Below are positions 31,245 through 64,000 of a stretch of 64,000 nucleotides of DNA, piece after piece. Where the stretch lies: positions 3,679,001 through 3,743,000 of the forward strand of contig NZ_CP121634.1 in NCBI RefSeq assembly GCF_029714945.1, in the 5' to 3' direction. The number at the start of each line of letters is the position of its first letter. The stretch's first letter is position 1. The position numbers were made by a program, and so were the translations under genes. This DNA is from Bradyrhizobium sp. CIAT3101. GTDB taxonomy: Bacteria > Pseudomonadota > Alphaproteobacteria > Rhizobiales > Xanthobacteraceae. The notes beneath the pieces are model-generated. The model was not told the origin of the DNA and made no database searches. It saw nothing but the letters and a program-made list of their open reading frames with translations.

Positions 31245-31506
31245 AGATCGCTGCGCGTTTCGGCTGGCCGATGTTGCCATGAGCCGCCGGTGCGTCGATC
31301 GTTCACTATTTCGCGGCTGCTTTTCTGAAGGTTTCCCGCGCACTCTCCGAACAATATCGTACATCTTGTTTTCGTGGTCGCCGCACCTGCAGCGTCTATG
31401 AAGCAGGAAACGCAAGCTGATCCGCAATTGGTCGCGGAAAGCGTGCAGGCGCGCGCTGCGCCTTGCAGGCTCAGCAAGCGGTACGCAGGCTGAGTACGAA
31501 ACGATC

Positions 31507-32685
31507 ATGCGATTGAGAGATGGTCTAGCGATCGCGTGTTATCTGATCTGTTCCACGCTGCTGGGCGGCTGCGGATTTGTTTCGATGTCAGGGCCGGCGA
31601 GCGTCGACGTCAAGGCGGAGAATACGAGCGTCCTGCCGTTCGCCATGGTCAAGCTCACCCCCGATATCGTGCATAAGCTGGAGAAGTTCGAGCCGAGCGG
31701 TTTGCCTGGCGGTCTAACGGATGCCCGTCCTCCCTCCAGCATCCGTTTCGGCATCGGCGATATCGTTAGCGTCACCATCTTTGAGGCGTCGGCCGGCGGT
31801 CTGTACATCCCGCTCGAAGCCGGCGTCCGGCCGGGCAACTTCGTCAACCTCCCTGATCAGGCCGTCGACAACGATGGCAACATCACGGTGCCATATGCTG
31901 GCAGGATACGCGCGGCGGGTCGTACCAACGTGCAGATCCAGGATGACATCCTCGCGCAGATCAAGAAGCGCGCGATCGATCCGCAAGTTGTCGTCACATC
32001 GAGCCAGCAGCGCTCATCGCTGGTCAGCGTGTTTGGCGAGGTCAGGACGCCGGTACGCTTCCCGATGCCGGCTGCCGGCGCGCAGGATCGCATCACCGAC
32101 GCGATCACCCGTGCAGGCGGCATCAGCGGCGCCGGCTGGGAAACCTGGGTTGTCCTCGAGCGTAGCGGTAAGCGCGCTACGCTACCGTTCGGAAACCTTG
32201 TCTATTTCCCCGCAAGCAACGTCTTCGTGCAGCCGGGGGACCGCATCTATCTCTATCGTGAGCCGATGAAGTTCGTCGCCTTTGGCGCGACCGGCCAGCA
32301 GGGTGAATTCAACTTCGACGCATGGCGTATCAATCTGACGCAGGCCGTCGCCAAGGCCGGAGGCCTGCTCGACCTGCAAGCCGACCCGGCCTCGGTGTTT
32401 CTCTATCGCCGCGAGCCGCGCGATGTCGCAAGTCAGCTCGGCATTGACTGTTCAAAATACGACGGCGAGACCGTTCCTGTTATCTTCAACGTCAATTTCC
32501 AGGACCCTGCGGGCTATTTCGTCGCCACCAAGATGCAGATGCGTCCCTTCGACGTGCTTTATGCCGCCAATGCGCCTCAGGTCGACATCACCAAGGTTCT
32601 CAATTTCATCAACACGGCGGTCGGAACGGCCGACAACGGGGCGCTCCTCGTCAACGATATCAAGGTGGTTCGAAGCAGGCTCTGA
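31507..32685 (+). CDS. Wza-type polysaccharide export lipoprotein
   Basis: 392 aa. A lipoprotein signal (CYLICSTLLGGC, lipid Cys22) is followed by a polysaccharide export domain (IRFGIGDIVSVTIFEA...NDGNITVPYAGRIRAAGRT) and SLBB-type repeats (VSVFGEVRTPVRFPM; VAFGATGQQGEFNF). It forms the outer-membrane channel for capsular or exopolysaccharide. No Wzc-type kinase lies beside it in this window; the priming transferase at 43944 is a likely partner. Confidence 0.94.
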   Translation: MRLRDGLAIACYLICSTLLGGCGFVSMSGPASVDVKAENTSVLPFAMVKLTPDIVHKLEKFEPSGLPGGLTDARPPSSIRFGIGDIVSVTIFEASAGGLYIPLEAGVRPGNFVNLPDQAVDNDGNITVPYAGRIRAAGRTNVQIQDDILAQIKKRAIDPQVVVTSSQQRSSLVSVFGEVRTPVRFPMPAAGAQDRITDAITRAGGISGAGWETWVVLERSGKRATLPFGNLVYFPASNVFVQPGDRIYLYREPMKFVAFGATGQQGEFNFDAWRINLTQAVAKAGGLLDLQADPASVFLYRREPRDVASQLGIDCSKYDGETVPVIFNVNFQDPAGYFVATKMQMRPFDVLYAANAPQVDITKVLNFINTAVGTADNGALLVNDIKVVRSRL

Positions 32686-32853: not shown

Positions 32854-33282
32854 ATGGGCGATGCTCTGTCGAGGTTTAGATTTCTCCGTCGGGCCGGCCT
32901 GGCGGCTTGGCTCGTCGCGACCATGGCGATCCCAGCGATGGCACAGGCGCCAGGTCCGCTTAATTTGCCGGCCAATTCGCCGGCTGGACCTGGGGCGGGC
33001 ACGATTGTCGGTGGCGCGACCCCCAGTTCCACCGTTCAACGTTGCGTTGATGTTCAGATCGGAGGCGACAGCGCATTCGGCTGTCTGAATGAGAAGCTTC
33101 GTCGAGAGGTGGACAGGGTCAATCCGTCGCTCAACCTGCCTCCGATCGATGCGCGATCATCCGACGTGCGCGTGGGCCTTGGCAACGAGGCGTCTGTCCG
33201 CCAACAGTTAGGGTCCAACTACGGTCGCTCAATCACTCCCTATCGTCCGCCGCCCATCGCTAATGTGCTGCCGCATCGCTGA
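32854..33282 (+). CDS. secreted protein of unknown function
   Basis: 142 aa with signal peptide (LAAWLVATMAIPAMAQAP), then a Pro/Gly-rich segment and a polar domain containing two Cys (RCVDVQIGGDSAFGCLNEKLRREVDRV), which may form a disulfide. The stop overlaps the next start by one base (TGATG), so it is translated together with the lytic transglycosylase. Not a family I recognise. Confidence 0.72.
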   Translation: MGDALSRFRFLRRAGLAAWLVATMAIPAMAQAPGPLNLPANSPAGPGAGTIVGGATPSSTVQRCVDVQIGGDSAFGCLNEKLRREVDRVNPSLNLPPIDARSSDVRVGLGNEASVRQQLGSNYGRSITPYRPPPIANVLPHR

Positions 33283-34154
33283 TGTCGAAATCTCCTCCCC
33301 AAAGCGGGGCCGCGACGCCCGCACGTCAATTGCTGTGGCCCTCGATCGCGGTGTGCCTGCTCGCCATTCTGAGCGAGCAGGTGAGGGCACAACAGGACGA
33401 AGCCGGCCAAGGCACCGAAATCAGCGGCGCTCCGCCGGTGGATGCGGACGACAGCGCGTTCGAACCACTGGCGCTCGAGCGGTTCGCGCCGCGTGCGCTC
33501 ACGGCTGCCGATTTTCCGCCGGCCAATCCGCTGCTTGCGAACTACTCATTCCGAAGCAGCGCAGTATTTGGTCGCGACTGGCGCGCCGGCCGTGCCGAGT
33601 ATCGTCAACTCATCGAGCGTGAATCGCTCGCGTTTGGCCTGCCGCCAGCACTTGTTGATGCCGTGATGGCCGTCGAAAGCAGGTACAATCCGAACGTCGT
33701 CGGCTTGGACGGCGAGGTCGGATTGATGCAGGTGATGCTGCCGACGGCCCGGATGATGGGATTTGCCGGCACACCATCGGAGCTCGCCACGCCCGAAGTC
33801 AACGTCCACTATGGCGTCCAATACCTCGCCGGCGCCTGGCGCAGGGCCGGCGGCGATCTGTGCACGGCGACGATGAAATATCGTGCCGGCCACGGCGAGA
33901 CGCGGTTCTCCTATTTGTCGGTCGAATATTGCACGCGTGTTCGCGCGCATCTGGCAGCAAACGGCGTTGCCATCACCGGCTCTATTCCGCAGCCGACGTT
34001 CGGAAGGTCGTCCGCCAGCGCTGGTGGTGGGAGTAATGGCGGCGCCAGCCGTGGCCGGATCCGGACCGCCGTCGGCAGTACGATCAATTTCGCAGAGCTC
34101 AACACGCGTCTGCGCAGCGCAGCCGAGCGAAAATTGCCCTCCGATCTACGTTGA
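33282..34154 (+). CDS. lytic transglycosylase (SLT domain)
   Basis: 290 aa with an N-terminal signal peptide (WPSIAVCLLAILSEQVRAQ). The SLT fold is clear at about 115-225: LPPALVDAVMAVESRYNPNVVG with the catalytic Glu in VESRYNP, GLMQVMLPTARMMGF, and NVHYGVQYLAGAWRRAGGDLCTATMKYRAGHG. It cleaves peptidoglycan, probably to allow envelope complexes such as the export channel to cross the wall. The C-terminal Gly/Ser-rich stretch is a linker to a short tail. Confidence 0.92.
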   Translation: MSKSPPQSGAATPARQLLWPSIAVCLLAILSEQVRAQQDEAGQGTEISGAPPVDADDSAFEPLALERFAPRALTAADFPPANPLLANYSFRSSAVFGRDWRAGRAEYRQLIERESLAFGLPPALVDAVMAVESRYNPNVVGLDGEVGLMQVMLPTARMMGFAGTPSELATPEVNVHYGVQYLAGAWRRAGGDLCTATMKYRAGHGETRFSYLSVEYCTRVRAHLAANGVAITGSIPQPTFGRSSASAGGGSNGGASRGRIRTAVGSTINFAELNTRLRSAAERKLPSDLR

Positions 34155-35390: not shown

Positions 35391-37172
35391 GTGGTGAATT
35401 CGCGTGGTCTGTATGAGAGGAGCGCGCGTCGCCATGCGCGTCTTCGGTTGCGCGATGTGCGGAGAAGCCGGTCGGCCGCCGCATGCGCTTCGCAGCTCGT
35501 TCTCTGCGGTCTGTTGATCTGCGCGGTCTGTGCGAGGCCCGCGGTGGCGAAGACCGAGGCCGGCGCCGCCAAGCCTGCTCCGGCGAAGCCCGCAGAGGGC
35601 ACGCCGGCCAAGAATGCCACGGAGCCAGGCAAACCGGCGGCTCCGGAGGCTCATTTCGATATCGACGAGTTTCGCGTCGAGGGCGCGGACAATCTGCCGC
35701 AGATCGAGGTCGAGGCGGCGGTCTATCCCTTCCTCGGTCCGAACAAGAGCGCACAGGACGTCGAGAAGGCACGCGCCGCGGTGGAGAAGGCCTATCACGA
35801 CAAGGGTCTGCAGACCGTGAGCGTGGGTGTCCCGCAGCAGGACGCCCAGCGCGGATTCATCGTGCTCAAGGTCACCGAGAGCCGTGTCGGGCGTCTGCGC
35901 GTCAAGGGCTCGCGCTATTTCGACCTCAAGAACATCAAGGACAACGCCCCCTCGCTGAAGGAGGGGACGCTGCCGAACTTTCAGGATGTGACGAAGGACA
36001 TCGTCGCGCTCAATCGCTGGGCCGACCGGCGCATCACGCCGGCGCTGCGCGCAGGCGTGGCGCCCGGCACGGTCGATGTCGATCTCAACGTCGAAGATAC
36101 CCTTCCGCTGCATGGCAGCGTCGAGCTCAACAACAAGCAGAGCCCGAGCACGACGCCGCTGCGGACCAGCGTCTCGATGCACTATGACGACCTCTGGCAA
36201 CTCGGTCATTCCATGACCTGGACCTACCAGGTCGCGCCGATGAATCCGAAGGACGCGATGGTGGTCTCCGGCTCGTATCTGGCGCGTACCGAGATCGACT
36301 GGCTCAGCGTTCTCGTCTACGGCCTGGTCTCGGACAGTTCGGTGGCAACCGTCGGCGGCGCGAACGTGGTCGGCCCGGGCCAGGTGATCGGCGGACGCGC
36401 GGTACTGACACTGCCCACGAAGGGCGACCTGTTTCAGACCTTGTCACTCGGCGTCGACTACAAGGATTTCAAGCAATCGCTGAAGCTTGGCAGCGACGCC
36501 TTCGACTCGCCGGTGACTTATGTGCCGCTGGTCGCGAGCTACGGTGCGACCTGGCAGGGCGAGGGGCATCTGACGCAGCTTAATGCCACCGTCACCACCG
36601 GTCTGCGTGGCGTTGGCTCGAGCCGCGATGAGTTCGACGCCAAGCGCTTCGATGCCACGGCGAGCTTCATCACGTTGCACGCTGATATCTCGCACACCCA
36701 GGATTTCGCCGGCGGCTTCCAGCTCTACGCAAAGCTCCAGGGCCAGGCGGCCGACCAGCCGCTGGTGTCGAGCGAGCAGCTCAGCCTCGGCGGACAGGAC
36801 ACGGTGCGCGGCTATCTCGAATCCGAGGTACTCGGCGATTACGGCGTCGCCGGGACGCTGGAGCTGCGCACGCCCAACCTCGCGCAATACATGCAGCAGA
36901 AGCTGCCCAACCCGCTCGGTGAATCCATCAAGTACAACGCGTTCGACGAATGGCGCTTCTTCGCATTCGTCGACGGCGGTAACGCCCGGATCTTTGAGCC
37001 GCTGATCGACCAGCAGTCGCATTTCGACCTCGCCAGCTATGGTGTCGGCATGCGGATGAAATCTCTTCGCTATCTCAACAGCATTATTTTCGTCGGTATG
37101 CCGCTGACCAGCCAGCAGGTCACCGTCGCCAACCATCCACGGTTCAGCTTTCGGGTCTGGGGAGAATTCTAG
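35391..37172 (+). CDS. TpsB/FhaC/ShlB-type two-partner secretion outer-membrane transporter
   Basis: 593 aa from GTG 35391 (GTG 35394 or 35457 also possible). Signal region LVLCGLLICAVCARPAVAK, then an Ala/Lys/Pro-rich linker. A POTRA domain follows at about 85-165 (HFDIDEFRVEGADNLPQIEVEAAVYPFLGP...GFIVLKVTESRVGRLRVKGSRYF). The 16-strand barrel comes next, with LSLGGQDTVRGYLESEVLGDYGV (the conserved VRGY motif of the pore-lining loop) and a terminal Phe-rich strand (FSFRVWGEF). It exports a large TpsA exoprotein; a TpsA N-terminus is encoded at 61498. It is immediately followed by ExbB, ExbD and TonB homologues. Confidence 0.9.
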   Translation: MVNSRGLYERSARRHARLRLRDVRRSRSAAACASQLVLCGLLICAVCARPAVAKTEAGAAKPAPAKPAEGTPAKNATEPGKPAAPEAHFDIDEFRVEGADNLPQIEVEAAVYPFLGPNKSAQDVEKARAAVEKAYHDKGLQTVSVGVPQQDAQRGFIVLKVTESRVGRLRVKGSRYFDLKNIKDNAPSLKEGTLPNFQDVTKDIVALNRWADRRITPALRAGVAPGTVDVDLNVEDTLPLHGSVELNNKQSPSTTPLRTSVSMHYDDLWQLGHSMTWTYQVAPMNPKDAMVVSGSYLARTEIDWLSVLVYGLVSDSSVATVGGANVVGPGQVIGGRAVLTLPTKGDLFQTLSLGVDYKDFKQSLKLGSDAFDSPVTYVPLVASYGATWQGEGHLTQLNATVTTGLRGVGSSRDEFDAKRFDATASFITLHADISHTQDFAGGFQLYAKLQGQAADQPLVSSEQLSLGGQDTVRGYLESEVLGDYGVAGTLELRTPNLAQYMQQKLPNPLGESIKYNAFDEWRFFAFVDGGNARIFEPLIDQQSHFDLASYGVGMRMKSLRYLNSIIFVGMPLTSQQVTVANHPRFSFRVWGEF

Positions 37173-39116
37173 ATGTCGCTCCTTCGCTTTGGATCACGCC
37201 GTGGACACGGCCTGAGCGCACCGGTGATGCTGCTTCTCGTTCTCATGGCAGTGTTGTGGCCGAAGCCCGCGTCCGCGTGGTGGAACGACCAGTGGACGCT
37301 GCGCAAGAAGATCACGATCGACACCGGCCAGTCAGGCGCCGGCATCAGCGACGCCATCGGCTCGGCGCCGGTGCTGGTGCGCCTGCATGTCGGTAATTTC
37401 CGCTTCGGCGCGGCGAAGGAGGATGGCGGCGATCTCCGCTTCATCGCCGGGGACGACAAGACGCCGCTCAAGCATCACGTCGAGAAATACGACTCTCTGC
37501 TCGGCGAGGCGCTGGTGTGGGTCGGTGTTCCCGATCTGAAGCCGGGCACGAAGAACGACATCTGGCTCTACTACGGAAACCAGAAGGCGCCGGCCGCGGT
37601 CGACGCCAAGGGCACCTACGATCCCGATACGCTGCTGGTCTATCATTTCAACGACCGCGGCACGCCGGCGCAGGACATCACCGCCTGGGCGAACTCCGCA
37701 CAGAACGCGGTGCCCGCGGCCGACGGTGCCATCATCGGGCAGGGCGCGCGCCTCGACGGGCAGACCGCGATCGCGCTTCCCGGCTCTCCCTCGCTCGTGC
37801 TCGCGGAAGGCGGCGAACTGACCTGGTCGATCTGGGTCAAGATGACTGCGCCGCAGCCGGGCGCCGTGCTGTTCTCCCGTACCGAGGGGGCGAACGCCCT
37901 CACGGTCGGCTTGGACAACGGTGTTGCGTTTGTCCAGGTCGCGAATGGCGGCAACACGCAGCGCAGCGCCGGCGGCGCGGCGATTGCGGCCGCCGGCTGG
38001 CATCAGGTCGCCTTTACGGCCAAGGGCGGACAGATCGCGCTCTATGTTGACGGCAGCCAGACCGCAACGCTGGCGGCAAGCCTGCCGACCATGACGGGTG
38101 TGGCCCAACTCGGTGCGGCTGCGGCCGCGCCAGCAGCCCCTGCTGCGGACGCCGCGGCGGCTCCGGCCGCAGGCGATGCGGCGGCGACGCCAGCGCCTGC
38201 ACCGGCGATTGCGGCCGTCGGCTTTGCCGGCGACGTCGACGAATTCCAGATCGCAAAGGTCGCGCGTCCTGCCGGCTTCATCAAGCTCGAGGCGATCGGG
38301 CAGGGGCCGGATCAAGCCAAGCTGATCTCGTTCAGCGTCGACGAGGAGACGTCGGGTTGGTTCAGCGGCGGCTATTTCGGCGTGATCCTGCGCTCGGTGA
38401 CGCTCGACGGTTGGGTCGTCATCGGCTTGCTCGCGATCATGGCCTTCATCAGCTGGTACGTCATGGTCGATCGCATCTCGTATCTCAATCGCGTCTCACG
38501 CGGCAACGAGCTGTTCCTCGGGCATTTCCGCCAGACCTCGACCGATATCGGCGGGCTGCTGCAGCTCGACAGCGAGGAGAACGATCCGAGCTTCGGCGGT
38601 GAGATGGGCAAGAAGCAGCGCAAGGCGGTCCACGGCGCGCCGCTGTATCGCCTGTTCGCAGCCGGCGCGCAGGAGATCCGGCGTCGCTTCGCTGGCGGCG
38701 GTTATCGCCGGCTGTCGCCGCAGGCGATCCAGTCGATCCGCGCCGTGCTCGACAGCGGCTTCGTGCGGGAGAGCCAGCGCCTCAACCGCTTGATGGTGAT
38801 GCTCACCATCGCGATTTCAGGCGGTCCGTTCATGGGCCTGCTCGGCACCGTCGTCGGCGTCATGATCACCTTCGCGGCGATCGCAGCGAGCGGCGACGTC
38901 AATGTTAACGCGATTGCGCCGGGCATCGCGGCCGCGCTGGTCGCCACCGTCGCCGGCCTCGGCGTCGCGATCCCCTCGTTGTTTGCCTACAATTATCTGA
39001 CGATCCGCATCAAGGACGTCTCCAGCGAGATGCAGGTCTTCGTCGACGAATTCATCACGCGGATCGCGGAATCCTACGAGCTGCCGGACGAGCCGGTGAA
39101 ACAGGCGGCGGAGTAG
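37173..39116 (+). CDS. DUF2341-LamG-like periplasmic module fused to an ExbB/TolQ/MotA proton channel
   Basis: 647 aa, starting directly after the TpsB stop. Signal peptide (LLLVLMAVLWPKPASAWW); DUF2341 domain (about 36-150: WWNDQWTLRKKITIDTGQSG, IWLYYGNQKAP); concanavalin/LamG-like domain (about 150-370: LTWSIWVKMTAPQPGAVLFS, GWHQVAFTAKGGQIALYVDG, VGFAGDVDEFQI) interrupted by an Ala/Pro-rich loop. The ExbB part follows with membrane segments near 412-431, 540-575 and 580-610 (GGPFMGLLGTVVGVMITFAAIA; AIAPGIAAALVATVAGLGVAIPSL). Ordinary ExbB lacks the 400-residue periplasmic head. Harvests proton-motive force for TonB; the head may bind glycan or the passenger. Confidence 0.92.
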   Translation: MSLLRFGSRRGHGLSAPVMLLLVLMAVLWPKPASAWWNDQWTLRKKITIDTGQSGAGISDAIGSAPVLVRLHVGNFRFGAAKEDGGDLRFIAGDDKTPLKHHVEKYDSLLGEALVWVGVPDLKPGTKNDIWLYYGNQKAPAAVDAKGTYDPDTLLVYHFNDRGTPAQDITAWANSAQNAVPAADGAIIGQGARLDGQTAIALPGSPSLVLAEGGELTWSIWVKMTAPQPGAVLFSRTEGANALTVGLDNGVAFVQVANGGNTQRSAGGAAIAAAGWHQVAFTAKGGQIALYVDGSQTATLAASLPTMTGVAQLGAAAAAPAAPAADAAAAPAAGDAAATPAPAPAIAAVGFAGDVDEFQIAKVARPAGFIKLEAIGQGPDQAKLISFSVDEETSGWFSGGYFGVILRSVTLDGWVVIGLLAIMAFISWYVMVDRISYLNRVSRGNELFLGHFRQTSTDIGGLLQLDSEENDPSFGGEMGKKQRKAVHGAPLYRLFAAGAQEIRRRFAGGGYRRLSPQAIQSIRAVLDSGFVRESQRLNRLMVMLTIAISGGPFMGLLGTVVGVMITFAAIAASGDVNVNAIAPGIAAALVATVAGLGVAIPSLFAYNYLTIRIKDVSSEMQVFVDEFITRIAESYELPDEPVKQAAE

Positions 39117-39120
39117 ATCC

Positions 39121-39525
39121 ATGCAAGTCCAATCCGAGAGCAAGCCGTACGACGACATCAACATCACGCCGATGCTCGATCTCGCTTACGTGCTCCTGGT
39201 GATCTTCATCATCATGACCACGGCGACCGTACAAGGCATGAAGGTGAACCTGCCGAAGGCGAGCGCGGCGCCGTCGCTCGCACAGCAGACCACCAAGGCG
39301 ATCACGGTCGCCAATGACGGCAAGCTGTTCCTCGACACCATTCCCGTCACGCTGCCCGAGCTCGAGCAGCGGCTGGTGCAGCAGCGCGCATTGACGCCGG
39401 AGTTTCCGATCGTGGTGCGCGGCGACGCCCAGACCCAGTACCAGAACGTCGTCGACGTGCTCGACATGCTCGGCCGCCTCAACTTCACCCAGGTCGGCAT
39501 GGCGACCAAGCCGGTGGCGCGGTGA
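39121..39525 (+). CDS. exbD: ExbD/TolR-family protein
   Basis: 134 aa. DINITPMLDLAYVLLVIFIIM is the single transmembrane helix with the proton-carrying Asp20; a periplasmic ExbD domain follows (ITVANDGKLFLDTIPVTLPELEQRL...VVRGDAQTQYQNVVDVLDMLGRLNF). It completes the ExbB-ExbD motor with the fused protein encoded just upstream. Confidence 0.95.
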   Translation: MQVQSESKPYDDINITPMLDLAYVLLVIFIIMTTATVQGMKVNLPKASAAPSLAQQTTKAITVANDGKLFLDTIPVTLPELEQRLVQQRALTPEFPIVVRGDAQTQYQNVVDVLDMLGRLNFTQVGMATKPVAR

Positions 39526-39546
39526 ACGAGAGCGCATGTAACGCCG

Positions 39547-40260
39547 ATGGACCCGCGCGACACCAACGAGGAAAACGAAGGACCGGCCTGGCGGCGCTAT
39601 TTGCTGCTGGGCGGTGGCGGTCTGCTCGTCATCGCGCTGATGGTCGGCGGCATCATGGTGCTGATGAGCGGCGACAAGAATCCGCCGCGCAAGGTGAACG
39701 AGCTCCAGGTCACGATGATCTTGCCGCCGCCACCACCTCCGCCTCCACCGCCGCCACCGGAAAAGCAGCCCGAGGACAAGGTGGTCGAGCAGACTCCTGT
39801 CAAGCAGGAGATGATCGAGGAGAAGCCGGTCGACATCCCCAAGGAAGCGCCGCCGGATGCGCCCGACACGCCGATGGACGCTCCGCCCTCGCTCGAAGCC
39901 AACACGGCGGGGCCGGGCACGCTGAAGGGCGGCAAGGGCGGCCTGATCGGCGGAGGTGGCGGCGGTGGTGGTGGCAGCAGCAAATGGGGTTGGTACGCGA
40001 GCATCGTGCAGGCCCAGATCGAGGCGGCGCTGCGCGCCAACGACAAGACGCGTCACGCCGTGATGCGGGTCAGGGTCCGGTTGTGGCCGGACGCGACCGG
40101 CCGGATCACGCGCGTGCAGCTGGTGTCTTCGACCGGCAACAACGAGCTCGACGCCGTGATCCGCGACCAGGTGCTCAACGGCATGACGTTGCGTGAGCCG
40201 CCGCCGAAGGAAATGCCGATGCCGATCGTGATGCAAGTCACGGCGCATAGTCCGGGGTGA
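39547..40260 (+). CDS. TonB-like energy transducer
   Basis: 237 aa. N-terminal membrane helix (YLLLGGGGLLVIALMVGGIMVLM), twelve consecutive prolines (about 60-71), an acidic Pro/Glu/Lys spacer, a Gly9 stretch, and a C-terminal TonB_C domain (YASIVQAQIEAALRAND...MRVRVRLWPDATGRITRVQLVSSTGNNELDAVIRDQVL). It should span the periplasm and deliver ExbB/ExbD energy to an outer-membrane partner. No plug-containing receptor is encoded in the window; the TpsB and the porin are the only candidates beside it. Confidence 0.92.
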   Translation: MDPRDTNEENEGPAWRRYLLLGGGGLLVIALMVGGIMVLMSGDKNPPRKVNELQVTMILPPPPPPPPPPPPEKQPEDKVVEQTPVKQEMIEEKPVDIPKEAPPDAPDTPMDAPPSLEANTAGPGTLKGGKGGLIGGGGGGGGGSSKWGWYASIVQAQIEAALRANDKTRHAVMRVRVRLWPDATGRITRVQLVSSTGNNELDAVIRDQVLNGMTLREPPPKEMPMPIVMQVTAHSPG

Positions 40261-40325
40261 GAAGAGGGCGGAACGGCGAGAGCCGTCGCCGCAAACGAGT
40301 TGAAGAGTGAAGAAGGGTTGATGCT

Positions 40326-42131
40326 ATGTGGCGTGCAGAGATGACAAAGCGACAGCTTGCGGGAACCGCGGCTATCCTGCTTGCGCTTTCCGTTCCCGCG
40401 TCGGCCCAGGACGATACACCGACGGGCAAGCGTCCCACCGTTTCGCGCGACGCACCGCCGTCGTCGAATGCGACCGTCAATTTGATCAACCTCCTGGTGA
40501 AGCAGGGCACGCTGAGCGAGGATCAGGCTGCGGCTCTGATCAAGCAGGCTGACGACGAGGCCTATGTCGCCCGCCAGGCGACGCGCGACGCCACGACCAA
40601 AGCGGAGGGTGCCGAGAAGGCAGCCACGACCGCGACGGACGCGGTCTCTCCGCCCGGCACGAAGCGTGTCACTTATGTCCCCGAGATCGTCAAGAAACAG
40701 CTGCGCGACGAAATTCGCGCCGAGGTCATGGCGAAGGCGGAGAAGGAGAACTGGGCGTCTCCAGGCAAATATCCGGAATGGGCACAGCGGATTCGGTTCT
40801 ACGGCGACATCCGTGCGCGATATGAAGGTGATCATTTTCCCGCTGGTAACCTGCCGCAGGAGAACTACAACGCGATCAACACGGGAAACCCGTTTCAAGA
40901 GGAGAATGGCAACTTCCCACCCAATCTCTATTTCCCGCCGTTCTACAACGTGACCCAGGATCGAAACCGTTTCCGCTTCCGCGCCCGTCTTGGCGCCGAC
41001 GTCGATCTGTCCGACGGCTTCTCGGCGGGCCTGCGGATCGCAACGGGCGATAGCAGCTCACCGGTCTCCACCAACCAGACGTTTGGCGGGAATGGCGGGA
41101 ATTTCTCCAAATACGCGCTTTGGCTCGATCGCGCCTTCATCAGGTACCAGCCGGTGCAGGATTTCGTTGCCACTGTCGGCCGGTTCGACAACCCGTTCTG
41201 GTCGCCGACCGATCTCGCCTGGTACAAGGATCTCGGTTTCGACGGATTTGCGATCCAGGCCAAGCACGAAGTCGACGAGGGCTTCACACCCTTCTTTGTC
41301 GGCGGTGCCTTTCCGATCTTCAACACAGATTTGAATGCGGGGCTCAACACCGTCGACCTGAACGGACCGATCAAGTCTCCCAGCCGCGATAGATGGCTGT
41401 TGGGTGCGCAGACCGGCTTCGGCGCCAGGTTTGATCCCGAGACCAACCTGAAACTGGCGGTGGCCTATTACGACTTCACCAACCTGCGCGGCAAGCTGTC
41501 GAGCTCCTGCCTGGTCATTACCGTCATTGACAGCTGCGACACAGATTTGTTGCGTCCCCTGTTCGCGCAGAAGGGCAACACCTACATGCGGCTACGCGAC
41601 ATTCCGACGTTGACGACGCCCGTCACCACGCTGGACTACCAGTTCTATGGGCTGGCTACCGACTTCCGGCCGGTTGTCGCCAGTGCCCAGCTCGACTTCG
41701 CCCAGTTCAATCCGATCCACATTACTCTCGATGCGGAATACGTCTGGAACACGGCATTCGATCGCGCAGCCGTGGCAGCCGTTGCGGTGAACAATTTTGC
41801 CGGTACATCGACCGGCGCGGCTGGCCCTTTCAACGGTGGCAACCAGGGTTGGCTCGCGCGTCTCACCGTGGGTGACAAGGAGATCAAGCATCTCTGGGAC
41901 TGGAATGCCCATGTCGGCTACAAATATCTCCAGTCGGACGCAACGGTCGACGCATTCGTCGATTCCGATTTCGGGCTCGGCGGCACAAATCTCAAGGGTT
42001 ACTTCATCGGCGGCAATGTCGGCCTCGCCGAGAATGTCTGGGCTTCAGTGCGCTGGATGAGCGCCAACAGCATTGCCGGGCTGCCTTACGCCGTCGACGT
42101 CGTCCAGCTCGATCTCAACGCGAGGTTCTGA
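40326..42131 (+). CDS. putative outer-membrane porin
   Basis: 601 aa from ATG 40326 (GAAGGG upstream). Signal peptide ending VPASAQ; a short helical/coiled stretch (NATVNLINLLVKQGTLSEDQAAALIKQ) typical of the putative-porin family precedes the beta-barrel, which starts around IRFYGDIRARYEGD and ends in a strand with terminal Phe (VVQLDLNARF). Many alternating aromatic strands (FSAGLRIATGD, FVATVGRFDNPFWSPTDLAWY). Likely a large diffusion or export channel; no plug domain, so not a classical TonB receptor. Confidence 0.88.
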   Translation: MWRAEMTKRQLAGTAAILLALSVPASAQDDTPTGKRPTVSRDAPPSSNATVNLINLLVKQGTLSEDQAAALIKQADDEAYVARQATRDATTKAEGAEKAATTATDAVSPPGTKRVTYVPEIVKKQLRDEIRAEVMAKAEKENWASPGKYPEWAQRIRFYGDIRARYEGDHFPAGNLPQENYNAINTGNPFQEENGNFPPNLYFPPFYNVTQDRNRFRFRARLGADVDLSDGFSAGLRIATGDSSSPVSTNQTFGGNGGNFSKYALWLDRAFIRYQPVQDFVATVGRFDNPFWSPTDLAWYKDLGFDGFAIQAKHEVDEGFTPFFVGGAFPIFNTDLNAGLNTVDLNGPIKSPSRDRWLLGAQTGFGARFDPETNLKLAVAYYDFTNLRGKLSSSCLVITVIDSCDTDLLRPLFAQKGNTYMRLRDIPTLTTPVTTLDYQFYGLATDFRPVVASAQLDFAQFNPIHITLDAEYVWNTAFDRAAVAAVAVNNFAGTSTGAAGPFNGGNQGWLARLTVGDKEIKHLWDWNAHVGYKYLQSDATVDAFVDSDFGLGGTNLKGYFIGGNVGLAENVWASVRWMSANSIAGLPYAVDVVQLDLNARF

Positions 42132-42133
42132 TC

Positions 42134-42727
42134 ATGCGGCTGTTGCGTGTTTCCTCCCTGGTCGCATTGGGGTTGATGGTCTGCTCGACCGCGCATGCGG
42201 ACCAGGAAGGCGATCGTCTGCGCGAGGCGTTGCGGTCCGCTACCGCGCAGGCGCGTGCGGCCGAAGACCAGCGTGCCGCTCTCCAGGCCAAGCTGACGGC
42301 AGCCGAGCAGGAACGAGAACGTCTGCGTAAGCAGAACGAGGCCTATCGAGCCCAGGTCAAGGAAGCCGAGCAAGCCTATCGCCAGGCCGTGAAGGACTTC
42401 AACGAGCGTCTCACCGAGCGTGATGATTCCCTCGAGAAGTGGAAGGTCGCCTATGCCGAGGCGGCCGGCGTGGCGCGCGCCAAGGATGCCGAGCGCGCCA
42501 AGTTCGAGGCTGAAGCGACCGCATTCAAGGCAAGCACCAAGGCCTGCGAGGCCAAGAACGTTCAGCTCGTGAAGACGGCCAACGAGGTCGTGACCAAATA
42601 CGAGGCGATGGATCCGTTCGAGAAGGTTCTCGACCACGATCCCGTATTTGGTTTGAAGCGCGTCGAGCATCAGAATGCCGCCCAGGACTACCGCGACAAG
42701 ATCATCGAACAGAAGGCCAAGCCATGA
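42134..42727 (+). CDS. periplasmic coiled-coil protein
   Basis: 197 aa, 2 bp after the porin. Signal peptide ending TAHADQ, then long Ala/Glu/Arg/Gln-rich helices from about 22 to 155 (AQARAAEDQRAALQAKLTAAEQERERLRKQ), the periodicity of a coiled coil, and one Cys (KACEAKN). The tail is DPFEKVLDHDPVFGLKRVEHQNAAQDYRDKI. Its last bases overlap the PpiC start by ATGA. Probably a periplasmic spacer or scaffold for the neighbouring membrane complex; family not recognised. Confidence 0.8.
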   Translation: MRLLRVSSLVALGLMVCSTAHADQEGDRLREALRSATAQARAAEDQRAALQAKLTAAEQERERLRKQNEAYRAQVKEAEQAYRQAVKDFNERLTERDDSLEKWKVAYAEAAGVARAKDAERAKFEAEATAFKASTKACEAKNVQLVKTANEVVTKYEAMDPFEKVLDHDPVFGLKRVEHQNAAQDYRDKIIEQKAKP

Positions 42728-43746
42728 CCCATGATGCATTCAAGACCGCCATGCTTGCGGGCGCGCTCTTCTTTGCGACCTCGTCCGTGGCCATGGCCCA
42801 GACCCGCAACGCTCCGCAGCCGACGCCGACGCCAGCGCGCCCCGCTCCGGCAGCTCCCACGCGGCCGGCGGCCGCCGAGGAGACTTCGGGCGTGGCCAAG
42901 GCAGGCGAGGTCATCGCGCGGGTCGGTGACAGCGACGTCACGGCGGACCAGGTGCGTGCGACGATCCAGCTGCTTGATGCGCGCCAGCAGGCCGCATTGG
43001 CACGCGATCCGGCTCTGCTCAGCCAGACGGTGCGGGCGATCCTCGCCAATCGCCTCGTGCTCAAGGAGGCGATGGCCAAGAAATGGGAGCAGCAGCCGGC
43101 CGTCGTCGACCAGCTGGCTCGCGCCCGCGAAAGCCTGATCGTCGAGAGCTATCTCCAATCCGTGACAACGCCGCCGGACAGTTTCCCGAGCGAGGCCGAG
43201 ATCAAGGGCGTGTACGAGGCCAACGCGAGCGCGTTGCTCGTCCCGCGTCGGTTCCGCCTGGCCCAGATCCTGGTCGCCGTGCCGAAGGATGCGGACAAGG
43301 CCGCCGAGGACGCCGCGCGGAAGAAGCTCGATGACGTCGTGAAGAAGGTCAAGCAGCCGGGCGCAGATTTCGCAGCGATTGCGCGTAGCTCATCGGACGA
43401 GTCTGTGTCGGCGGAGCATGACGGCGACATCGGTTGGGTGAACGAGCCTGATCTGCGCGGCGAAATTCGTGGCCAGGTCACGGGACTGCCGAAGTCAGGC
43501 ATCACCGACGCCGTCCGGCTCGACGACGGCTGGCACATCGTGAAGCTGCTGGATACCGAGGCAGCCCACACCCGGCCGTATGCGGAGGTGAGGGACGCGC
43601 TGATCCAGCGCATGCGGGCTGAACGCGTCGAGGCCAACCGCCGCGCCTATGTGACGGAATTGCTTAAGCAAACCCCGCCGGTCGTGAACGAAATCGCGCT
43701 GTCGAAACTACTCCAGACAAAGTCAGAGGCGCAGCCGGCGCGTTAG
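42724..43746 (+). CDS. periplasmic peptidyl-prolyl isomerase (parvulin/PpiC-SurA type)
   Basis: 340 aa, start overlapping the coiled-coil gene. Signal peptide (LAGALFFATSSVAMAQT), Pro/Ala linker, SurA-like N-terminal helices (VIARVGDSDVTADQVRATIQLLD...LVLKEAMAKKW), then the parvulin domain (about 170-270: RRFRLAQILVAVPKDADK, DFAAIARSSSDESVSAEHDGDIGWVNEPDL, GITDAVRLDDGWHIVKLLDTEAA). It would fold outer-membrane proteins, most obviously the TpsB and porin encoded in the same operon. Last gene of that run. Confidence 0.92.
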   Translation: MTHDAFKTAMLAGALFFATSSVAMAQTRNAPQPTPTPARPAPAAPTRPAAAEETSGVAKAGEVIARVGDSDVTADQVRATIQLLDARQQAALARDPALLSQTVRAILANRLVLKEAMAKKWEQQPAVVDQLARARESLIVESYLQSVTTPPDSFPSEAEIKGVYEANASALLVPRRFRLAQILVAVPKDADKAAEDAARKKLDDVVKKVKQPGADFAAIARSSSDESVSAEHDGDIGWVNEPDLRGEIRGQVTGLPKSGITDAVRLDDGWHIVKLLDTEAAHTRPYAEVRDALIQRMRAERVEANRRAYVTELLKQTPPVVNEIALSKLLQTKSEAQPAR

Positions 43747-43943: not shown

Positions 43944-45392
43944 GTGACCGACGTAACCGACCGAAGCGACGCAATCGAAGCGTCGACAACCTTCGAGAGT
44001 GCATCAAGGCCGCGCATCAGCGTTCCGTTCGGCCTGATCGAGCCGCTTTTCGCGTTGGCCGACGTCCTGGTCATCGTCGCAGCGGGCGCGTTGGGTGGCT
44101 TGTTATATCACGGCGTGCTCGGCGCCGGGACCGGCGATCCCGGCGTCTGTGCTGGCTTGGGTTTGGTGGCGAGCCTGGCCTATGTGCTCGCGGCGCATTG
44201 TCTTGGTCTCTATCGGCTGAACGATTTGCTCCAGCGCGAGTACGATAGCGGGCGGATCTGGACCTGCTGGAGCGTGGCAATTCCGGTTCTCGCCGTCATC
44301 CTGTTTCTCTTCAAGTCCAGTGCGGAAACCTCGCGCGGCGCGATCGTTTGCCTGTTCGTTCTTGGAGGGATCGGTCTCGTTCTCGCACGGAGGCTGGCCA
44401 AGCGTCGCCTGCGTGCGGCTTTGATGACAGGCGCCATTCGCGGCCGGCGGGCGATCGTGATTGGAACGAAAGGCGAGTTGGCTTGTTTCGGGCGGCGCGA
44501 TCTTCTGGTCAGGTTCGGTCTGGATGAAGTCGGGCGCGTATTCTTGCCGCCGTCCTCGAAATCGAAAGCGTACGCCGAAACGGTGCTGGATCGCGTACGG
44601 GAGGCCGCGGCAGAGGAGATCGTCCTCGCATTGTCGTGGTCGGGCCCGGAAGACATTCAGTGGCTGCTCGATCAGTTGAGGGCGGTCCCGCTTCCGGTTC
44701 GCCTGCTTCCCGATCGCGCGGTGTCGACGGTGCTTCAGCGCCAGACCTCGATGCCGCAGCGATTGTATATGGTCGAGTTGCAGCGCACCCCACTGACCAC
44801 GCTTGAGCGTGGGGTGAAGCGGATGCTTGACGTGACGGTCGGTGCGACGTCGCTGATGTTGCTGACGCCGCTGTTGTTCGCGGCGGCGATTGCGATCAAG
44901 CTTGAATCACGTGGGCCAATCATCTTCCGGCAGCAGCGCCATGGTTTCAATGGCCGGTCCTTCACCATCTACAAGCTGCGGACCATGAAGGTCCAGGAGG
45001 ATGGCGCTGCCGTGGTGCAGGCCACGACAAGCGATCCACGTGTCACCCGCGTGGGACGTGTGCTCCGCTCGACCAGCATCGACGAACTCCCTCAATTATT
45101 GAACGTGCTGCAAGGGCATATGTCCGTCGTCGGGCCGCGTCCGCATGCCTTGGTCCATGACTACGAGTACGGACGCATGATCGCGAACTATTCGTTTCGC
45201 CACCACGTGAAGCCGGGAATTACAGGCTGGGCGCAGGTGCACGGATATCGAGGCGGTACGCCGCGACTGGAGCTCATGGAACGCCGAATTGCGCTGGATC
45301 TCTGGTATATCGATAATTGGAGCGTTGTGCTCGATATCAGGATCATCCTGAGGACGGTTTTTGAACTGGTCCGGGCGCAAAATGCGTATTGA
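43944..45392 (+). CDS. undecaprenyl-phosphate sugar-1-phosphate transferase (WbaP/ExoY type)
   Basis: 482 aa from GTG 43944. Several N-terminal membrane helices (FALADVLVIVAAGALGGLLYHGVL; IPVLAVILFLFKSS) and a nucleotide-binding-like middle part precede the catalytic bacterial sugar transferase domain (about 285-482: GVKRMLDVTVGATSLMLLTPLLF, IFRQQRHGFNGRSFTIYKLRTM, STSIDELPQLLNVLQGHMSVVGPRPHA, KPGITGWAQVHGYRGGT). It starts polysaccharide repeat synthesis by loading a sugar phosphate on the lipid carrier. First gene of the EPS region. Confidence 0.95.
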   Translation: MTDVTDRSDAIEASTTFESASRPRISVPFGLIEPLFALADVLVIVAAGALGGLLYHGVLGAGTGDPGVCAGLGLVASLAYVLAAHCLGLYRLNDLLQREYDSGRIWTCWSVAIPVLAVILFLFKSSAETSRGAIVCLFVLGGIGLVLARRLAKRRLRAALMTGAIRGRRAIVIGTKGELACFGRRDLLVRFGLDEVGRVFLPPSSKSKAYAETVLDRVREAAAEEIVLALSWSGPEDIQWLLDQLRAVPLPVRLLPDRAVSTVLQRQTSMPQRLYMVELQRTPLTTLERGVKRMLDVTVGATSLMLLTPLLFAAAIAIKLESRGPIIFRQQRHGFNGRSFTIYKLRTMKVQEDGAAVVQATTSDPRVTRVGRVLRSTSIDELPQLLNVLQGHMSVVGPRPHALVHDYEYGRMIANYSFRHHVKPGITGWAQVHGYRGGTPRLELMERRIALDLWYIDNWSVVLDIRIILRTVFELVRAQNAY

Positions 45393-59010: not shown

Positions 59011-59704
59011 TTGAACAATCCTGATCTCTGCAAGCCCAACATCTCGCGCGGTTCGCATACCCGGGGCCCCAAGACGAAAGCCGCTCGATCGGAGCGGTTG
59101 GGCACAGCTCGGAGTTATGCGAAGGAAGATGTTATCGGTGTAGGTATGTTGTGTTATTAACGTTATGATGAATGAGGTGAGACGAAGCAATGACGTCTCA
59201 CAGGCGCGATGCGGTGAGCTCGTGCGGGAAATGCTCGAATGAGAGCGTCGGCCGGCTTCGATGCAGCGCATCGCACGGTCAATGGAGCAGCCCGCCGGGT
59301 TGAATTTATCAGCCGCGCCGCAGCGATCGGTTGTCGCGAGAGGCCGACAAATTCGCCCCAATTCTTGCGGGTCCGTCTGCGATTTCAGCGCTTTTAGGCC
59401 GGACGTTGGTGCTGTGCGCGGCGTAGCATCCTCTCAGGCGAACATCAGAACGTGCGCGCTCGAGGGGCTGTGCCAGCGCTGTCGTCGCTCGCTTGAATGC
59501 ATGGTTTGCGCGAGCCACACCGATAGAAATTCGGGCTTGTTCTTCGGTGGACCGCATCCTTATCCACAGATCATTGGTGGGATGATATCGCCGCAATGTT
59601 AGTTCACATAATTAATATCAAAGCTTCACTCGCGGCATTTATGAGTGCCCCGCGCAATTGGCGAGGTGCCGTTGCGGCAAACTGAACCCAACTGGAGTTG
59701 GAAA
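59011..59704. other. divergent intergenic region between PpiC and PstS-like genes
   Basis: 694 bases without a supported gene. AT-rich patches flank it: GTTATTAACGTTATGATG near 59150-59167 and GCAATGTTAGTTCACATAAT near 59593-59612, the latter shortly before the PstS-like gene. Likely two separate promoters. Confidence 0.55.
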
Positions 59705-61363: not shown

Positions 61364-61474
61364 TATAAACGTTAGCGTAACGATATGCGGACAATTGGGA
61401 TCCCAGGCGAAAGCCGTGGGCGTCCCACGCGGCAACCGTCGCCAGGCGCCGGGTGAAAGCCGAGGAGTTTGAAT

Positions 61475-61501
61475 ATGTTCACTGCAGGGTGTTGCGCGTG
61501 A
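61475..61501 (+). CDS. eight-codon leader ORF coupled to TpsA
   Basis: MFTAGCCA, with the best ribosome site of the area (GAGGAG 8 bases before the ATG). Its TGA overlaps the GTG used for the exoprotein as GTGA. Such leaders can couple translation or regulate it. It could also signal that the true TpsA start is elsewhere. Confidence 0.4.
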   Translation: MFTAGCCA

Positions 61502-64000
61502 CAATCCTTCGAGCGTTTCGTGGCCAGGGCGCCGCCGCCGTTTCGACCTATCTCCGTGGCGTCAGCATTGTCGCCTTGCTGGCGGGCGGCGGTACCGCCG
61601 GCGCGCGCAGCCTCAACAGCTCGTCAAGCATTTCGCTCACGAACGCCGCCAGCGCGGCGCAATTGGCTGCGGGGATACAGGCTGCCGCGGCGGCGCAGCA
61701 ATCGTCGCAATCGCTTGCCCGTGCAGCCGCGGCACTCCAGGCGGCGCGGGCTGCGCAGCAATCGGCAAAATCGCTGGCATCGACCTTGAAGGGTGGGGTC
61801 CCGGACGGCATCACGACCAACGGACTGATGCCGGCCGATGGAATCGCCGGTGACCCGACCTTGTGGCAAGGCGCGTTGGCGCCCACCCAAACCGTCGCCA
61901 ATGGCCGGACGCTGGTCGATATTCAACAGACACAGCAAAAGGCGATCCTGAACTGGAAGACGTTCAACGTCGGCCGCAACACCACGCTCACCTTCGATCA
62001 GCAGGCGAGCGACTGGACGGTCCTGAACCGGGTCTCGGACCCGTCTGCCTCTCCGAGCACGATCCTCGGGCAGATCAGCGCGAAGGGGGGCGTCTACATC
62101 ATCAACCAGAACGGCATCATCTTCGGCGGCGGCTCCCAGATCAATGTTCACGCGCTGGTGGCTTCTGATCTCGATGTCGGGACGCTCGGGCAGACGCGGT
62201 TCGACCGCGATCAGTTCTTCCTCGGCACCGGCATCGCCAATGGAACGCTTGCCGTCAAAAGCTTTTCGATCGGAGGGGAAGACAAGCAGACGAAAGCGAT
62301 CGGCGGTGGCGTGGTCGTTCAGGCCGGCGCCACGATACAGATCGACGATCCGGGCCCGGATAAGCCGGGTGGGTTCGCCTATCTGTTCGGCTCGAACGTC
62401 GCGAATTACGGCGAGATCAGTGTACCGAACGGGGAAGCAGCCCTGATTTCGGCGCGTGCTATCTTTCTGACGCCAAACAGCGACGCCGCCGCTAGTTTTC
62501 CGTCTGCTGTCCTGCCGGCGAAGGTGACGTTCCGCGGGACCGGGTTCCAACTTTCGCCATATGCAAACTCATACAATTTCGCTGGAACCCCCAGTGGTCC
62601 GTATTTGTCGGGGACAGGCTCTGTCGCCAATAACGGGCTGATCGAAACACGCAGCGGCATCGTCGAGATGGCGGGTGACCGGGTCAGCATCGGCGCCCAG
62701 GGTGTCATTTCGGCGGACACCAGCATCAGCCTTCCCAGCATGGTGCTGCTTCATGCGGCGACGAGTGTCGACCTGAGCGGCACGATCAGCATGCTCCCGT
62801 CCGACACTGGCGCGACGCTTCCGCAGTCGAGCAGCGCGGGAAGCAACGTCCAGAGCTTCATGCCAGCCTACGTCGAAGCGACGGCACAAGGTCAGGTCAC
62901 CGTCGAATCGAGCGGCCTCGTGTCGGCTCCTGCCGCGTCGATTTCGATCAATGTCGCGGACCTGACAGGCAGTCAGGGCAGCAGCAGAACCCTGTTCGGC
63001 GATGTATCGGTGAACGCATCGCTGTCGGGCCCGCAACGCGTGCTGCTCGCGCCCGGCGCCACCATCGACGTGGCCGGATTGCAGAACGTCGAGCTTCCGG
63101 CGAGCTACAATTTCATCTCTTTTACGCCGACCAACGAGTTTGCGGACATGCCGCTTCAGCGCAGCGGCGCGCTGTACGGACAGCCGCTGTGGATCGATAT
63201 TCGCGCGTCCGGAACGCGCAGCGACGGCACGACGTGGCTCGGCACACCGCTCGCGAACGCGAACGACGTCGTCAATGCGGTCGGCCGGAGCATCTTCCAG
63301 TTGATGACGGCCGGCGGCAATGTGTCGCTGACCACGCCCCAACTCAATGCTGCGGGCCAGGAGGTGGTGCTTCAGTCCGGGTCTGTGATCAACACGGCAG
63401 GCGGCAGCATTCGTTATCTGCCCGGAACGGTTCCGGTTACAATCCTTCTGGGCAGCGACGGCCGCAGATACAGCATGCAAAATGCCAGTCCCGACATGAC
63501 CTATGTCGGGATTGCCGGCGTGTTCACTTCCGCTCATTCGCATTGGGGGGACACGTACAAGCAGATCTGGAACACCAACACCACGATGCAGGTCTCGGGG
63601 TATACCGACGGGCAGGGTGCGGGCGGCGTTGCCGTCAGCACGGTGAACCCGGTGCTGGCGGGGACGCTGCTGTTCGGCTCGGTCGCCGGCGAGCGCCAGA
63701 TCGCGTCCGGCAGTTTGCCCTCGCAGGGCTATCTGACGCTCACCACGCCATCGACCGTCGTGATCGGAGCGAACGCGACGTCGCTGCCTGCCGATTTCGA
63801 TTCCAGATACAACCAGAATATCTATTCGGCCAATGGAACGCTGATCGGCAAGGGGACAGCGCTGCTCCCGCCGAATCCGACCAACGCGACAGACCTCGTG
63901 TCCTCGGATAATTTCGCGTCGACGAGCGCTTACCAGACGTTCCTGTCGGCAGACGAGCTTTCGGGCTACGGGCTCAGCGCGCTTTCCATCACGTCCAACG
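61498..64000 (+). CDS. filamentous-haemagglutinin-type TpsA exoprotein, 5' part (runs off right edge)
   Basis: Read by hand from GTG 61498 to the window end (834 codons, no stop); GTG 61453 is an alternative. A signal-like start (YLRGVSIVALLAGGGTAGA) is followed by an Ala/Gln/Ser repeat segment, then the TPS secretion domain: QQTQQKAILNWKTFNVGRNT, SDWTVLNRVSD, GQISAKGGVYIINQNGIIFGGG and INVHALVASDLDVG, typical of filamentous haemagglutinin N-terminal domains. After it come beta-helix turns (GLVSAPAASISINVADL; VVLQSGSVINTAGG). It should be exported by a TpsB; that of 35391 is the candidate. Full proteins of this type often exceed 2000 residues. Confidence 0.92.
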   Translation, partial: MTILRAFRGQGAAAVSTYLRGVSIVALLAGGGTAGARSLNSSSSISLTNAASAAQLAAGIQAAAAAQQSSQSLARAAAALQAARAAQQSAKSLASTLKGGVPDGITTNGLMPADGIAGDPTLWQGALAPTQTVANGRTLVDIQQTQQKAILNWKTFNVGRNTTLTFDQQASDWTVLNRVSDPSASPSTILGQISAKGGVYIINQNGIIFGGGSQINVHALVASDLDVGTLGQTRFDRDQFFLGTGIANGTLAVKSFSIGGEDKQTKAIGGGVVVQAGATIQIDDPGPDKPGGFAYLFGSNVANYGEISVPNGEAALISARAIFLTPNSDAAASFPSAVLPAKVTFRGTGFQLSPYANSYNFAGTPSGPYLSGTGSVANNGLIETRSGIVEMAGDRVSIGAQGVISADTSISLPSMVLLHAATSVDLSGTISMLPSDTGATLPQSSSAGSNVQSFMPAYVEATAQGQVTVESSGLVSAPAASISINVADLTGSQGSSRTLFGDVSVNASLSGPQRVLLAPGATIDVAGLQNVELPASYNFISFTPTNEFADMPLQRSGALYGQPLWIDIRASGTRSDGTTWLGTPLANANDVVNAVGRSIFQLMTAGGNVSLTTPQLNAAGQEVVLQSGSVINTAGGSIRYLPGTVPVTILLGSDGRRYSMQNASPDMTYVGIAGVFTSAHSHWGDTYKQIWNTNTTMQVSGYTDGQGAGGVAVSTVNPVLAGTLLFGSVAGERQIASGSLPSQGYLTLTTPSTVVIGANATSLPADFDSRYNQNIYSANGTLIGKGTALLPPNPTNATDLVSSDNFASTSAYQTFLSADELSGYGLSALSITSN

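Follow-up and report, generated by a model that had tools for sequence, protein, structure and literature searches.

A DUF2341-ExbB motor operon tracks giant DUF3739 TpsA proteins and may serve their two-partner secretion

Gene content of the operon

The genome of Bradyrhizobium sp. CIAT3101 is a single 9.37-Mb contig (NZ_CP121634.1), of which we analysed a stretch of 64,000 nucleotides (positions 3,679,001 to 3,743,000), referred to here as the window. Its open reading frame (ORF) list includes a run of seven ORFs at 35391-43746, all on the plus strand, that combines a TpsB outer-membrane transporter with a Ton-type motor whose ExbB subunit carries an N-terminal DUF2341 and laminin-G head. 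We describe here the association of this operon with one class of giant TpsA protein, a member of which is encoded further downstream. The genes concerned are:

35391..37172, plus strand: TpsB outer-membrane transporter, GTG start, Pfam ShlB and POTRA_2
37173..39116, plus strand: ExbB/TolQ-type motor subunit with N-terminal DUF2341 and laminin-G head (Pfam)
39121..39525, plus strand: ExbD/TolR-type motor subunit (Pfam ExbD)
39547..40260, plus strand: TonB with Pro12 and Gly9 runs (Pfam TonB_2 C-terminal domain)
40326..42131, plus strand: Porin_5 (Pfam, E 2e-212)
42134..42727, plus strand: coiled-coil protein, PA0697-like by position, no Pfam family above cut-off
42724..43746, plus strand: PpiC-type peptidyl-prolyl isomerase (Pfam rotamase)
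61453..64000 (window end), plus strand: TpsA with a two-partner secretion (TPS) domain, the frame extending to about contig position 3752965 (G000:C1)

An earlier note on this DNA, made from the letters alone, had described seven genes in one direction with tiny gaps or overlaps, zero spacing between TpsB and the ExbB fusion, a DUF2341 and lectin-like head on ExbB, and a TonB with 12 prolines; all of this held up. The coordinates give intergenic spacings, in operon order, of 0, 4, 21, 65, 2 and -4 nt (the last a 4-nt overlap), the TAG stop codon of TpsB abuts the ATG of ExbB, and the proline run is exactly 12. Pfam places DUF2341 at residues 84-173 of the fusion, Laminin_G_3 at 196-316 and MotA_ExbB at 501-621, and the DUF2341/laminin-G head is presumably periplasmic. 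The TpsA that had been reported at 61498 is present, with its first listed start at 61453. The locus carries the hallmarks of two-partner secretion (type Vb), namely a TpsB with POTRA domain and ShlB/FhaC barrel and a TpsA with an N-terminal TPS domain, and those of a Ton system, namely ExbB, ExbD and TonB with conserved proton-path residues. The closest named proteins to the operon products are from Bradyrhizobium, among them a 99% identical ExbB fusion in Bradyrhizobium sp. CCGUVB4N. Bradyrhizobium diazoefficiens and Pseudomonas chlororaphis likewise encode a DUF2341-ExbB.

The ExbB fusion tracks TpsA proteins with DUF3739

We examined genome samples drawn by the search tool (149 genomes of the same family, 398 Pseudomonadota and 145 Verrucomicrobiota), in which species counts are not independent events. 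The ExbB head matched over most of its length in 16 of the 149 family genomes, the window's own included, and five more gave weak partial matches near E 1e-3; the module is thus patchy in its distribution. Among the 398 Pseudomonadota, DUF2341 was found in 13 genomes and DUF3739 in 14, with 13 common to both (Fisher p 1.7e-23 if species are taken as independent). In the 14th DUF3739 genome, G426, the ExbB core is followed by ExbD, TonB and Porin_5 on a contig of 3770 bp whose start falls within ExbB. Porin_5 is present in all 14, and a PF03865 TpsB in 13, G426 being the miss. TPS domains, on the other hand, occur in 141 of the 398 genomes, which places the tie with one class of TpsA rather than with two-partner secretion at large.

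In Verrucomicrobiota, DUF3739 was found in 5 of 145 genomes, and in all five a DUF2341 frame of 628-752 aa adjoins TpsB on the same contig. The identity of this frame as ExbB was established in three (G575, which is also named locus L081, G621 and G748), the others being G693 and G733. The layout in G621 and G748 is TpsB-ExbB-ExbD-TonB-Porin_5-coil-TpsA. In each of the 19 sampled genomes with a DUF3739 TpsA (14 Pseudomonadota and 5 Verrucomicrobiota), either the motor gene or a DUF2341 frame of matching size is present. The association of the ExbB fusion with this class of giant TpsA, defined by a C-terminal DUF3739, is presented here as new.

DUF2341 without DUF3739 was found in 16 further Verrucomicrobiota genomes. 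An ExbB-core profile gave weak matches (20-53 bits) in 9 of 12 DUF2341 regions from nine of these. The possibility that these encode DUF2341-ExbB proteins without two-partner secretion proved a false alarm for the six ORFs tested with Pfam, which come from four of the DUF3739-less genomes: none has MotA_ExbB, and two of the six carry a carbohydrate-esterase domain. Weak ExbB-core matches were also seen in loci L228, L229 and L231. Six of the DUF2341-only genomes were searched for TpsB, which was found in none of four, on another contig in G718 and below the cut-off in G723.

Organization of related loci

Two sets of loci were compared. The first comprised 28 loci taken from the searches of the family and of the 398 genomes, and the initial search found TpsB in 24 of them. 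Of the other four, G167 and G500 have TpsB beyond TpsA, G410 keeps TpsB on a separate contig that also carries TpsA, coil and Porin_5, and G114:C30 is a second ExbB-ExbD-TonB copy in a genome that has a full module. For the second set, named genomes were scanned with 17 aligned ExbB fusions from the first, and the best 80 of 302 relatives were taken; these belong to Pseudomonadota and Verrucomicrobiota, apart from one contig that bears the label Myxococcaceae. Where a named locus extends at least 6 kb past ExbB on the downstream side (66 cases), ExbD, TonB and Porin_5 were always present (66/66), the coil was found in 62 and PpiC in 26; Porin_5 lies on the opposite strand in L119.

TpsB is linked in 71 of the 80 named loci. 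Its frame starts at most 3.5 kb upstream in 49; of the remaining 31, 18 have a TpsA frame of 2921-4187 aa between TpsB and ExbB on the same contig and 4 (L112, L120, L135 and L136) have TpsB elsewhere in the locus. The seemingly TpsB-less loci were considered as counter-examples, and these 18 and 4 cases mostly dissolve them. The earlier note had held that a link to export would fall if the ExbB set occurred mostly without TpsB; the survey came out the opposite way, with TpsB also present in 13 of 13 Pseudomonadota fusion genomes. A chance neighbourhood of TpsB and a Ton operon is ruled out by the 28 relative loci and 80 named loci. Layouts vary (TpsB-ExbB..., TpsB-TpsA-ExbB..., ...coil-TpsA, and split in G410), with the parts staying within one genome. 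DUF3739 was detected in 47 of 50 named fusion genomes (given for 50 of the 80 loci); the three without it (L079, L080 and L091) are metagenome-assembled drafts in which the fusion sits on contigs of 3.5-8.7 kb.

The probable TpsA client and its C-terminal tail

The stop-to-stop frame of the window TpsA is 4195 aa, with the TPS domain at 157-359 and DUF3739 at 4007-4116 (frame numbering). It sits 18 kb downstream of the operon and is the likely client of the operon TpsB. Many of the flanks without an immediate TpsB contain a giant frame that ends just 5' of ExbB. Pfam confirmed DUF3739 in the one such frame tested, that of L121, and all 18 giant frames in TpsB-TpsA-ExbB order match a profile of TpsA C-termini made from the window protein and its relatives. 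Several genomes have multiple DUF3739 matches: G571 has nine, G600 six, G595 also six, of which some are partial, and G603 four. Given such genomes, one TpsB-motor set may serve many TpsA clients.

We compared 60 distinct TpsA C-termini. A strand-like motif (consensus about PSxxxVEVLGFG) lies within the last 75 residues of 54, a count that is descriptive only as the pattern was written after viewing the tails; the pattern likewise matched 16% of tails after shuffling and 27% of windows farther upstream. The chain ends with the motif in at least 8 of the 60. A pair of cysteines is found within the last 45 residues of 13 tails, cysteine being otherwise nearly absent from TpsA (56 in 109,412 residues). 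The window TpsA has the motif (ASVFIVEVVGYGGG) and lacks the cysteine pair. A structure model of the TpsA end from B. manausense (mean pLDDT 72, 35 sequences) shows strands between 159 and 332, followed at 354-411 by a tail of very low confidence that includes the motif. The C-terminus of the DUF3739 TpsAs is thus a flexible tail that in most cases carries a strand-like motif.

A distinct TpsB with a short region before POTRA1

The window TpsB has POTRA_2 at residues 89-163 and matched CdiB (6wim) over residues 83-255 in a search of solved structures; the same searches with Porin_5, TonB and the ExbB head yielded nothing useful. Between its signal peptide and POTRA1 is a stretch rich in alanine, proline and lysine in which no H1-like helix was seen. 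The distance from the signal-peptide cut to POTRA1 is 0-35 residues in 10 module TpsBs versus 45-80 in 10 other TpsBs, distances that rest on a crude cleavage rule of our own and on detected POTRA starts. The H1 helix of FhaC spans about 20 residues. In that protein it is followed by a 30-residue linker, and the linker is indispensable whereas H1 is not; an H1 plug helix is predicted in most TpsB proteins and is not strictly defining for two-partner secretion (PMC5422565). Module TpsBs seem to lack the H1 plug helix, if the short region before POTRA1 is read as its absence.

In a tree of 45 module rows, drawn at random from 97, and 14 others, the module TpsBs form a single clade, set off from the others by a branch supported at 100/100; rows were labelled by profile score, and the program warned of long branches meeting. 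The profile itself was built on module TpsBs and favours them in bit score by construction, whereas the tree was built without it. A POTRA_3 match was absent from ten module TpsBs, but also from 4 of 10 other TpsBs. TpsB N-termini were inspected by eye for a TonB box, and no convincing conserved motif emerged.

The motor and Porin_5

The membrane aspartate of ExbD (Asp20 in the window protein) is identical in 107 of 107 aligned rows, and two threonines of ExbB are kept in 109 of 109. Because these residues are conserved, the motor is likely to be proton-driven. For the window ExbB and ExbD, the best-scoring models are those of TolQ and TolR, yet both scores stay below cut-off (124.5 bits with 221 needed for TolQ, 90.3 with 127.3 needed for TolR). 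Two ExbD-like genes follow ExbB in tandem in L112, L121, L126, L132, L139, L141, L148, L151 and L152. The Porin_5 model (pLDDT 82.7, 59 sequences) has 16 long strands, counted by eye, a long N-terminal helix and a disordered start. A conserved stretch precedes the barrel and was considered as a TonB box, a candidate that we set aside as nothing ties the stretch to TonB. With regard to the head of the ExbB fusion, DUF2341 and LamG are fused to a SASA carbohydrate esterase in two Verrucomicrobiota frames (L237:6603-9773 and L238:8003-10996), which hints that this domain pair could bind glycan.

Surroundings of the operon

The operon is flanked by polysaccharide-export and WcaJ-type glycosyltransferase genes (31402-32682 and 43944-45392). 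Other features of the window are:

19571 (GspD) to about 29190: type II secretion cluster, with GspD above the NCBIfam cut-off, GspE- and GspF-like proteins, pseudopilins and GspK-/PilN-like proteins
33282..34154, plus strand: SLT lytic transglycosylase, sharing 58% identity over 175 aa with the SLT after the module in relative locus L057
34432..35103, minus strand: extracytoplasmic function (ECF) sigma factor, sharing 48% identity over 172 aa with the ECF adjoining the L057 module
58084-59361, minus strand: second PpiC-type isomerase, near TpsA, 29% identical over 98 aa to the operon PpiC
59645-61204: PstS-like binding protein directly before TpsA, scoring below the PstS cut-off

No Plug or TonB-receptor family was detected in the 15 window ORFs scanned, out of 20 of at least 450 aa. 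In L057 (3705-7436), the genes ahead of TpsB encode a VreA-like STN+TonB_2 protein, a further TonB, an ECF sigma factor and FecR, an arrangement that resembles the regulation of the PUMA3 region, outside Pseudomonas. The ORF cluster to which the L057 ECF gene belongs has members in 17 of the 28 loci, and that of its FecR gene in 16.

Possible role of the motor

To the question of how two-partner secretion is energised, the usual answer is folding at the cell surface, with no other source. Co-occurrence gives strong support to a link between the motor and TpsA export. The suggestion in the earlier note that the motor energises export or release of TpsA, or opens the porin, stands as far as this link is concerned; direct powering of export, release or the porin by TonB is a hypothesis. 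We think it rather probable that a dedicated Ton-type motor serves the export, anchoring or release of DUF3739 TpsAs, and that the operon supplies transporter and motor, one half of a distinct two-partner secretion class. The giant TpsA, with its TPS domain and DUF3739 (in the window, the client from 61453), would pass through TpsB, and the DUF2341/LamG-ExbB, ExbD and TonB would act with Porin_5, the coiled coil and the peptidyl-prolyl isomerase at the outer-membrane stage, where the motor could finish transport, hold the TpsA C-terminus or release TpsA. TonB would act on TpsA, TpsB or Porin_5. The constancy of Porin_5 as the outer-membrane neighbour of the motor is a point in its favour as the contact. 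The constant client is the DUF3739 TpsA, and its tail motif makes it the boldest candidate. A specific version, which we consider a long shot, is that the C-terminal strand motif of TpsA stays periplasmic and adds as a strand to the TonB C-terminal domain in the manner of TonB boxes, the motor then pulling, parking or releasing a TpsA threaded through a TpsB without plug helix. In this version, VreA-like TonB domains might also sense secretion by reading that tail.

Several observations weigh against a motor dedicated to TpsA export. Nine of the 80 named loci (L115, L119, L126, L130, L132, L137, L141, L146 and L151) have no linked TpsB, and the set as a whole, gathered through an alignment of module ExbB proteins, favours module-type loci. 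One DUF2341-ExbB/ExbD/TonB copy (L067:7627-10611, G114:C30) stands without TpsB or Porin_5 in 19.9 kb; the same genome also holds a full module (L066). G550 and G557 have DUF3739 and no PF03865 match, perhaps owing to contig ends. A review describes reconstituted translocation of TpsA into liposomes with no external energy supplied (PMC5422565), and P. aeruginosa mutants in tpsA, tpsB and the tonB homologue were as virulent as the wild type in a VreI-induced zebrafish infection (PMC2729926), an account in which no secretion assay of the tonB mutant was seen. We found no published experiment showing that the motor is needed for secretion.

The constancy of Porin_5, which is found beside the motor as regularly as ExbD and TonB (66/66 loci) and in 14 of 14 DUF3739 genomes, could also point to uptake: TpsA would capture a ligand at the surface, as HxuA does with haem-haemopexin, and TonB would energise passage of the ligand through Porin_5. 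The hxuABC operon does join two-partner secretion to a TonB-dependent transporter (PMC5422565), and a PstS-like gene precedes the window TpsA. However, the Porin_5 model consists of strands and an N-terminal helix and Pfam shows no plug domain in it, the scanned window ORFs include no Plug receptor, and no substrate gene set was seen tied to the module; we regard uptake as unlikely. The resemblance of ExbB and ExbD to TolQ and TolR, albeit below cut-off, raises the alternative of a Tol-like motor that steadies the outer membrane or peptidoglycan during passage of the giant protein, with the LamG head holding glycan. This would fit the occurrence of DUF2341 and LamG on carbohydrate esterases (2/6 ORFs) and the SLT transglycosylases that adjoin the module in the window and L057, but general envelope upkeep should be distributed more widely than a fusion restricted, among the 398 genomes, to those with a DUF3739 TpsA, and we consider such a housekeeping function distinctly improbable. 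A purely regulatory motor, in which TonB and a VreA-like STN+TonB_2 protein report the secretion state of TpsA to FecR and the ECF factor, seems the most doubtful of all. The VreA-like, ECF and FecR genes adjoin the module in L057, and the clusters of its ECF and FecR genes recur in 17/28 and 16/28 loci; yet the signal protein proposed for PUMA3 is VreA and not the motor (PMC2729926), and beside the window operon an ECF gene is present but neither FecR nor VreA was found among the ORFs scanned.

The joint occurrence of this motor and this class of giant TpsA in sampled genomes of two bacterial phyla suggests that an export route thought to be free of outside energy may be motor-aided. Given the co-occurrence in 19 of 19 genomes, the role of the motor in two-partner secretion becomes directly testable by gene deletion. 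The association also offers a first hint of function for DUF3739, DUF2341-ExbB, Porin_5 and the uncharacterised TonB system of Pseudomonas.

Comparison with known systems

The window locus has a described counterpart, which the earlier note had not named, in the PUMA3 region of P. aeruginosa (pdtB-exbB2-exbD2-tonB4). That region comprises PA0690 tpsA (pdtA), PA0692 tpsB (pdtB), PA0693 exbB2, PA0694 exbD2, PA0695 tonB4, PA0696-PA0698 and PA0699 PpiC (PMC2729926, PMC4971064, PMC7035377), and is under the control of VreI, an ECF factor (Llamas et al. 2009, PMC2729926). Llamas et al. noted that homologues of the TPS genes, ExbBD and PA0696 are found together in other bacteria, including R. palustris, and the tonB4 system was termed 'still uncharacterized' in a 2020 paper (PMC7035377). 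Compared by gene order and published gene tables (PMC2729926, PMC7035377) rather than by the PAO1 sequence, the two operons share the order TpsB-ExbB-ExbD-TonB-porin-unknown/coil-PpiC, a type II secretion system in the region (hxc in P. aeruginosa, GspD/E/F in the window) and an ECF sigma gene. They differ in PA0698, which precedes PpiC in P. aeruginosa and has no counterpart in the window operon, and in the place of the TpsA gene, found 18 kb beyond the operon in the window. Other Pseudomonas ExbB proteins carry DUF2341, and the accessible parts of the published accounts do not link DUF3739 or DUF2341 to the motor. DUF2341 on this motor family is already in print: ExbB/TolQ relatives with extra N-terminal domains, DUF3450 and DUF2341, have been named, with no function or gene context for the fused DUF2341 in the accessible text (PMC12505986). 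A literature search, with subscription journals mostly outside its reach, returned no paper on DUF3739 and no test of a motor in two-partner secretion, and the accessible text of a paper on Ton genes of Sphingobium SYK-6 (PMC8599685) contained nothing that identifies the window module.

Unlike Tol-Pal, the window motor has ExbB and ExbD subunits that score below the TolQ and TolR equivalog cut-offs. The Oar/PopC system of Myxococcus xanthus offers a parallel in that a Ton motor has a role in secretion of a protein across the outer membrane, but there the channel is a plug-type TonB-dependent transporter (PMC6434023), whereas in the module it would be TpsB. With classical two-partner secretion (FhaC/FHA, HMW1, HxuA) the module shares the TPS domain, POTRA and ShlB barrel, and the cysteine pair in 13 of 60 TpsA tails recalls the C-terminal anchor of HMW1 and HxuA, in which the C-terminus is kept locked in the pore of TpsB through a disulphide loop (PMC5422565). 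What sets the module apart from these systems is a Ton-type motor of its own, Porin_5 and a TpsB with a short region before POTRA1.

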